64,000 bases of DNA, from assembly GCF_013402815.2 (NCBI RefSeq), contig NZ_CP058601.1, positions 1,984,001 through 2,048,000 on the forward strand, read 5' to 3'. The stretch comes from Natrinema halophilum. GTDB lineage: Archaea > Halobacteriota > Halobacteria > Halobacteriales > Natrialbaceae. Below are positions 4,151-15,099 of this stretch, piece by piece. Position 1 is the first letter of the stretch, and each line of letters begins with the position of its first letter. The notes under the pieces were generated by a model. That model was not told the DNA's origin, made no database searches, and saw only the letters and a program-made list of their open reading frames with translations. Made by a program: the position numbers and the translations under genes.

Positions 4151-4334
4151 ACAGTGACGTACGAACGTAAGGGTGAAAGTCGTGTCGGGATAGCTGCCTA
4201 CGGGGCGAGTGCGACTGACGCAGTATCCCGTATCGCTCGCGGTGTATCGCTTCCATCACGGTCGATGCTCGATTCCTACTATCTTTAACCAGGTGCAAAC
4301 CCCGGCCATTCAGGCCAGAGGTTCGCGTCATAAG

Positions 4335-4645
4335 CTTAAATTATCGGGTAGTCGTAACTATGGGCGTACACGGAAACTGGCAGTTGACTTAGTGGTTGCC
4401 TCAACGAAACGTAAGCCGACCGCGGCGACTGTCGGAAACCAATCAGGTAACTCGAAGCCCAGTGCAGGTTCGAGTCTCGGCTTCGTGACAAAGCCACTGG
4501 CTGACAGTCCACAAGCCGTAGATTTCCGATCACTCGAACCGTCGGGAGTAACGTAGGACCCTCAGGAAGTTCCGCCGTCGTCGGGCTCTGCCCGACTGCC
4601 TGAGGAATCTTCGATCCCGCTTCGTTTACGGCGGGGTGGATGTCA
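4335..4645 (+). mobile_element. IS605/IS1341-derived remnant (MITE-like) with omega-RNA-like 3' end
   Basis: This gene-free 310-bp stretch looks like an IS200/IS605-family remnant with no transposase. It begins with an AT-rich left portion (ttaaattatcgggtagtcg). Near its right end is a nested hairpin. CCTCAGG at 4560-4566 pairs with CCTGAGG at 4599-4605, and inside it GTCGGGC-TCT-GCCCGAC forms a perfect 7-bp stem at 4580-4596. After that comes a short unpaired segment ending gcggggtggatgtca at 4645. A structured 3' end abutting the insertion boundary is what TnpB guide (omega/sot) RNAs of haloarchaeal IS1341-type elements look like. Plus-strand frame 3 stays open to 4556 and could be a tnpB 3' remnant. 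The family assignment is inference; the hairpins are seen. Confidence 0.5.
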
Positions 4646-4933
4646 CCCTTCTTCGAGCGGTCCATATCGCTCTTCGACCGCGTCGAGATAGTTCGCGAGA
4701 AACGCGTCCTGCCCTCGCTCACCGGCCTCGAGATCGATTAGCAGCGCCTCGAGACCGTTACGTGGGTGGTGACACAGGTCACGATGGCAGGTTTTACAGA
4801 GATGTTCGAACGTCTTGTCCTCGCGATCCCAGCGGTCGCCGTGTTTGTCGTATTCGCGGGCCTCATCGCGCGGACGCTCGGTGCCACAGGCGAGACATGT
4901 TACCGTCTCCGTGCGGTTCCGAGAGGGCCACAT
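4643..4933 (-). CDS. Small zinc-binding protein of unknown function
   Basis: A 96-aa protein that starts MWPSRNRTETVTCLACGTE. It has two CxxC-type pairs (CLACG near residue 14, and CKTCHRDLC with a following HH near residues 46-56), so one treble-clef or HNH-like zinc site is likely. The C-terminal half is helical (GLEALLIDLEAGERGQDAF). No enzyme family can be assigned. Its TGA stop (4643-4645) coincides with the last bases of the IS605-like remnant, so the element may supply the stop and may have replaced the original C-terminus. Confidence 0.75.
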   Translation of the reverse strand: MWPSRNRTETVTCLACGTERPRDEAREYDKHGDRWDREDKTFEHLCKTCHRDLCHHPRNGLEALLIDLEAGERGQDAFLANYLDAVEERYGPLEEG

Positions 4934-15017: not shown

Positions 15018-15099
15018 GCCAGGATGGCCGAACGGTAAGGCGCACGCCTGGAAAGCGTGTTCCCTTTCGGGATTCAGGGTTCAAATCCCTGTCCTGGCG
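15018..15099 (+). tRNA. tRNA-Ser (anticodon GGA)
   Basis: An 82-nt cloverleaf. Acceptor arms GCCAGGA and TCCTGGC pair fully. The D-arm stem is GCC/GGC. The anticodon stem CACGC/GCGTG closes the loop CTGGAAA (anticodon GGA). A long variable arm (CCC-TTTC-GGG) is the class II mark of serine. The T-arm is CAGGG-TTCAAAT-CCCTG with discriminator G, and CCA is not encoded. Its 3' end is the integration site of the element that follows: 15 bp from 15086 are repeated at 29285. Confidence 0.97.

Follow-up and report, generated by a model that had tools for sequence, protein, structure and literature searches.

The window, a 64,000-nucleotide stretch of a Natrinema halophilum contig, contains a leftward gene for a "zinc protein" whose stop codon lies within a short element, bordered on its other side by a gene that we take to be rnb (Table 1). 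No TnpB was detected at the window by tblastn, and neither tnpA nor tnpB, which could not fit into 364 bp, was found. The only Rfam match above the gathering score in the window is a tRNA gene at 15018 to 15099 (+); a match to Rfam MS2 at 4297 to 4312 was set aside as chance (13.8 bits against a gathering score of 40).

Table 1. Positions in the window of the element, its parts, and the gene that it enters
Feature	Positions	Strand	Basis
Target motif (TAM) CTAT (ATAG on the gene strand)	4279–4282	+	Same in TnpB elements of the group
Whole TnpB-less element, 364 bp	4283–4646	+	Left-end match, divergence of copies, absence in relatives
Left-end hairpin, GGCC-ATTCA-GGCC core	4300–4321	+	Direct reading
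Candidate TATA box CTTAAATTAT	4335–4344	+	Putative; ~26 nt before helix 1 of the RNA model
RNA 5' domain, helices 1 and 2 (helix 3 absent here)	4362–4426	+	Match to model R1, covariation
Conserved 20-mer AACTGGCAGTTGACTTAGTG, 2 differences from consensus	4375–4394	+	
Helices 4 to 6	4427–4510	+	Apparent homologue of the omega/sot RNA scaffold that lies within the 3' coding part of tnpB
Right end, outer stem and two inner hairpins, last bases ...GGATGTCAC	4565–4646	+	Predicted omega-RNA 3' part
Predicted guide (flank)	4647–4666	+	Position of the right end
Host-gene stop codon TGA, element-supplied	4643–4645	−	
Host gene, leftward "zinc protein," DUF7562, 96 codons	4643–4933	−	Pfam, 146.7 bits

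In a blastn search of the window's own genome, positions 4300 to 4700 matched 19 places besides the locus itself, and the right end is present at 17 of them (at 15 over at least 62 bases with 79 to 92% identity). The nested hairpin and right end that had been predicted at the locus are therefore real and recurrent. Placed side by side, the copies are alike up to ...GGATGTCAC (...GTCAC) and their flanks then differ, which sets the end of the element at 4646. At the left, CTAT followed by CTTTAACCAG is also the start of full-length TnpB elements, and this match assigns 4279 to 4282 to the motif and 4283 to 4646 to the element. The left-end hairpin occupies the position that it has in the other IS605-type left ends known from the solo-element family, and the junctions as proposed read CTAT, element, CCTT, without target duplication. 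The original prediction had run from 4335 to 4645; its left edge proved to lie inside the element, near the candidate promoter, and its right edge one base short of the end, whereas its placing of the stop codon within the element was correct. A chance hairpin is excluded by these genome-wide repeats together with the order-wide occurrence of the 20-mer described below.

Sixty-one genomes were searched for the site and 50 matched, and 29 loci from other genomes (28 congeners and one member of the same family) were inspected. All 29 have the leftward gene, and in each of them it terminates with no element there, so the region is not a normal spacer conserved among relatives. Their proteins finish in LEERER, LEEES, LEEHER, or similar, compared with LEEG in the window. 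The stop codon falls inside CTAT in two relatives and inside TTAT in one, and locus L041 has CTATCGTTCCTCGAG where the window has CTAT, the element, and CCTTCTTCGAG. Five relatives keep the same gene order, with a spacer of 52 to 94 nt; in other relatives, the neighbor differs. We infer that the former host stop was a TAG, within the ATAG of the target motif, that was swapped for the TGA of the element: an empty site reading GAA GAA GGA TAG would have become GAA GAA GGG TGA. Read in this way on the gene strand, the protein is apparently unchanged; the stop is the element's own, which bears out the earlier suggestion that the host stop codon is supplied by the element. In a gene on the opposite strand, a TTAT target gives NNA TAA without and NNG TGA with the element, and the change from NNA to NNG is synonymous for all sense codons except ATA.

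Short elements in other genomes resemble the interior of the element. When up to 2 mismatches are allowed, the 20-mer AACTGGCAGTTGAMTCGGTG is present in 60 of 392 genomes of the order, representing 30 of 95 genera; a control pattern had two matches in the table. The maximum, 24 matches, was observed in genome G083, a single contig of 2.9 Mb. Species genomes were also scanned for exact copies of the 20-mer, which yielded 59 stretches, all titled as haloarchaeal. After 18 duplicates were dropped, 109 distinct places remained, and at 94 of these an element end with up to 4 mismatches lies within 330 bases (80 with up to 2 mismatches). The solo elements are mostly 329 to 385 bp long, and family copies were found with different flanks. 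Of 76 copies, 55 had a left end that could be placed with a pattern requiring nTAT, and 48 of these left ends lie behind TTAT; in the window copy, the motif is CTAT, and the right end is of the three-hairpin kind seen in the local TnpB group. What had been described as an orphan IS605-type remnant thus does lack TnpB but is one member of a short-element family that is widespread and has a conserved RNA of its own.

Two further copies are present in the own genome. The second, L021 (1254 to 1497; C1:2897053-2897296), has the 5' domain joined straight to the right end, with loss of the scaffold, and a TTAT target motif despite a right end of the CTAT group. The third, L118 (C1:1094358-1094498, −), scores 95.5 bits against the RNA model and apparently has no right end. 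Three near-identical TnpB-less elements of roughly 450 bp, L018, L019, and L025 (C1:138211, C1:2417127, and C1:323419), start behind CTAT at the left and contain a scaffold resembling an omega-RNA, without the 20-mer or the 5' domain; the right end is of the window type in L018 and L019, and L025 is truncated. Their differing flanks suggest recent movement.

Seventy-six of the 109 distinct places satisfied all conditions for a count of stop codons. An in-phase frame of at least 60 codons on the opposite strand is ended by 27 of these 76 copies, compared with 110 of 863 background sites (Fisher p = 1.5e-6), the background being TTAT only, drawn from the same loci, and inclusive of overlapping loci and the elements' own sites. 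The remaining two phases gave 14 and 6 at this length. The contrast was weaker with a threshold of 40 codons (30/76 versus 185/863; p = 5e-4), and at 100 codons the counts were 18/76 and 54/863; the CTAT background in the window is 33/146. Twenty of the 27 in-phase frames were scanned, and 11 of them have a Pfam domain (E 0.001), so some of the 27 may be spurious. By its coordinates, an SDR gene annotated on one plasmid has its stop on the element's TGA; at the plasmid hit L197, the annotated gene continues through the element and does not end there. As 110 of the 863 TTAT sites overlap stops anyway and insertions within genes are presumably purged, the excess is compatible with the absence of any evolved preference.

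For the RNA, removal of redundancy reduced 51 element sequences to 37; of these, 35 were aligned, with L100 and L125 left out, and were split by eye into class 1 (20 sequences, including the window) and class 2 (15 sequences). Paired cells make up 91.3% over the eight helices of class 1 and 94.5% over the seven helices of class 2, percentages that are inflated by drawing the structures from alignment members, which leaves the double changes unaffected. Covariation was 0.253 in class 1 (0.117 shuffled, 0/500; at most 0.064 slid) and 0.326 in class 2 (0.115 shuffled, 0/500; at most 0.097 slid). In helix 1, C-G is replaced by U-A in 8 of 19 sequences, and in helix 2, A-U by G-C in 4 of 20. At the scaffold of the window copy, GACTGTC (4427 to 4433) pairs with GACAGTC (4503 to 4509) around two hairpins, a combination seen in no other row of the 20 in class 1. 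RNAalifold, applied to the same alignment, retained helices 4 and 5 and the terminal stem and folded the first 44 columns differently, and helices 1 to 3 therefore rest on the counted double changes. The minimum-energy fold of the window copy differs from the drawn one and is of modest stability (z −2.1). One frame of the 20-mer reads KLAVDSV; protein coding was rejected, as the downstream frame is broken by indels and the variation preserves base pairs.

Model R1, built from the first 164 positions with the window left out, matched the window once in 64 kb, at 4362 to 4510 (104.2 bits; E 8e-27); besides lacking helix 3, the window copy has two of the six helix 1 pairs broken. All 59 loci of the species scan matched R1 (20.8 to 188.4 bits), some of these copies being also in the model. 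Among 49 class 1 copies, near-identical ones included, 17 of 22 matches to TATA-like hexamers fall between −41 and −38 relative to the 20-mer, consistent with a promoter a short way in from the left end; no such cluster was observed upstream of the 20-mer in class 2.

TnpB domains are encoded at 18 places in the own genome, in keeping with the proposal that candidate TnpB genes would be found away from the locus. Four of the 17 right-end places are directly behind a TnpB gene, in the TnpB elements L029 to L032, whose right ends are of the window type with 89 to 92% identity; the tnpB frame is unbroken in L029, L030, and L031 and broken in L032, and Pfam was used to check TnpB in L029 and L031. 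All seven TnpB elements examined in this group combine the CTAT motif with a window-type right end. The IS605/IS1341-type origin and the omega-RNA-like 3' part that had been proposed for the locus both agree with these shared ends, and the position of the right end would make the 3' end of the leftward gene the guide, again as proposed. The length of 20 nt given to the guide is the figure from other TnpB systems. Full-length L029 to L032 lack the 20-mer. TnpB loci L030, L031, L032, L079, L080, and L082 matched R1 at positions 99 to 156 alone, and L029 and L011 matched the whole of R1 weakly (26.8 and 25.4 bits). The scaffold thus appears to be common to TnpB and solo elements, with the 5' domain clearly seen only in those without TnpB. 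Of nine solo loci, eight matched Rfam sot0042, as did the two TnpB loci compared with it, in every case below the gathering score; the window copy gave no match.

It is plausible that TnpB proteins of the own genome with the same target motif and ends serve the solo RNA in trans. Twenty family-bearing genomes were tested; all 20 have TnpB-type genes (9 to 57 places), and 17 have Y1. As possible partners of the TTAT-type members, 19 loci with TnpB domains from other genomes were compared: 3 were unmatched by two TnpB queries, and 16 are distant (24 to 34% identity) and show no clear right end of the TTAT type. L011 of the own genome, with 54% identity, a candidate TTAT left end, and a right end ...GGATGTCAA, is no more than a lead. 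The sole Y1 transposase gene found there, L035 (C1:3443176-3443484), has an in-frame TAG, which makes the present mobility of the solo elements doubtful.

We consider the locus to be a transposase-less element of the IS200/IS605 type whose sole gene would be a guide RNA used by TnpB in trans, with a probability of about 0.68. The boundaries, absence in relatives, family, RNA fold, replaced stop, and ends and motif shared with TnpB on which this view builds were all read from sequence. Transcription would begin at the candidate promoter close to the left end and cross the right end into the host gene, the flank beyond that end becoming the guide. A TnpB from another element would bind the solo RNA and cut CTAT plus guide at chromosome copies that had lost the element, and retention would thereby be favored. 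Movement would need a Y1 transposase in trans, and landing on a stop codon would be harmless, with an in-frame stop restored by the element end. Extension to haloarchaea at large, as widespread satellite guide-RNA elements with their own promoter and a dedicated 5' domain, borrowed TnpB and TnpA, and silent landing on stop codons through the combination of target motif and right end, is more tentative, and we would put it at somewhat below even odds.

The chief competitor is a passive palindrome-associated transposable element (PATE), in which only the ends recognized by TnpA matter and the interior is a functionless leftover of an old TnpB element. Loss of the core of an IS605-type element is a known origin of PATEs (PMC3119063), and such decay would fit the own-genome copies L021, without the scaffold between 5' domain and right end, and L118, without the right end. 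However, the interior helices are still paired through double changes, in the window copy as elsewhere, and conservation across 30 genera extends to a 20-mer well away from the ends, so that we regard a purely passive element as unlikely.

A regulatory RNA of host or element, unrelated to TnpB guiding and acting, for example, as an antisense to the convergent gene or by titration of TnpB, would suit an element that often faces the end of a convergent gene, where read-through would be antisense, and a 5' domain not clearly seen in TnpB elements. Such a role is harder to reconcile with a right end and target motif that match those of TnpB elements and with a guide position free to vary with each insertion, and it seems improbable. 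Hardly any weight can be given to an ordinary intergenic spacer with a terminator-like hairpin: taken alone, the fold of the window copy is indeed only modestly unusual, but the element is absent at this gene in 29 of 29 relatives and is repeated in the genome and across the order.

Among known systems, IS200/IS605 insertion sequences carry tnpA and/or tnpB; the window element has neither and is thus a nonautonomous derivative, sharing the insertion behind a fixed motif of 4 to 5 bases. Its closest relatives in the own genome, the IS1341-type L029 to L032, have the same CTAT, left start, and right end but carry tnpB and lack the 20-mer. Stand-alone IscB omega-RNAs, reportedly found by Altae-Tran in 2021, are likewise guide RNAs set apart from their nuclease, which is of a different family and goes with a different RNA layout. 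The haloarchaeal sotRNA, or TnpB omega-RNA (RF02656, sot0042; PMC12558985), appears to have a homologous scaffold and right end; as described in the available part of that source, sotRNAs sit inside and behind tnpB, whereas the solo elements lack tnpB and have an extra 5' domain.

PATEs, as far as the available portions of their descriptions go (PMC3119063, PMC10544981, PMC7290912), resemble the solo element in noncoding length, IS605-type ends, near-terminal palindromes, and a left motif of 4 to 5 bases; they are also described as having neither terminal inverted repeats nor a target duplication, and no duplication is seen at the junctions proposed here. The window element likewise has near-terminal palindromes, is too short for a transposase, and shows different flanks and empty sites. 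Those portions report that PATE HqIRS71 contains a piece of the coding region for the TnpB C terminus and that strong transcription occurs at one end of a viral PATE, an element that its authors likened to the Halobacterium noncoding RNA; a conserved RNA family, 5' domain, own promoter, covariation, or stop-codon effect does not appear in them. Neither a conserved TnpB-less omega-RNA family nor a stop-codon effect is described in the titles and abstract openings listed by searches of open-licence papers. The exact 20-mer has no match in IMG/VR, and three members have no phage match; the published HRTV-DL1 PATE is therefore not tied to the family. The solo omega-RNA element is best classed as a variant of the known PATE/IS605 kind. 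If our reading is true, guide RNAs of Cas12 ancestors would spread as independent elements, so that many unlinked guides could be loaded into a single TnpB, perhaps a step on the way to separate guide arrays. It would also account for the persistence of PATEs without coding capacity and offer a testable route for harmless insertion at a gene end.

Weak matches to Rfam HgcC (RF00062), all below the gathering score (best E 4e-4), were also observed over the 3' half of solo elements, at L128:809-903(−), L075:2131-2263(+), L119:1154-1251(+), and L073:1859-1993(−), and HgcC itself may be an omega-RNA-like family.
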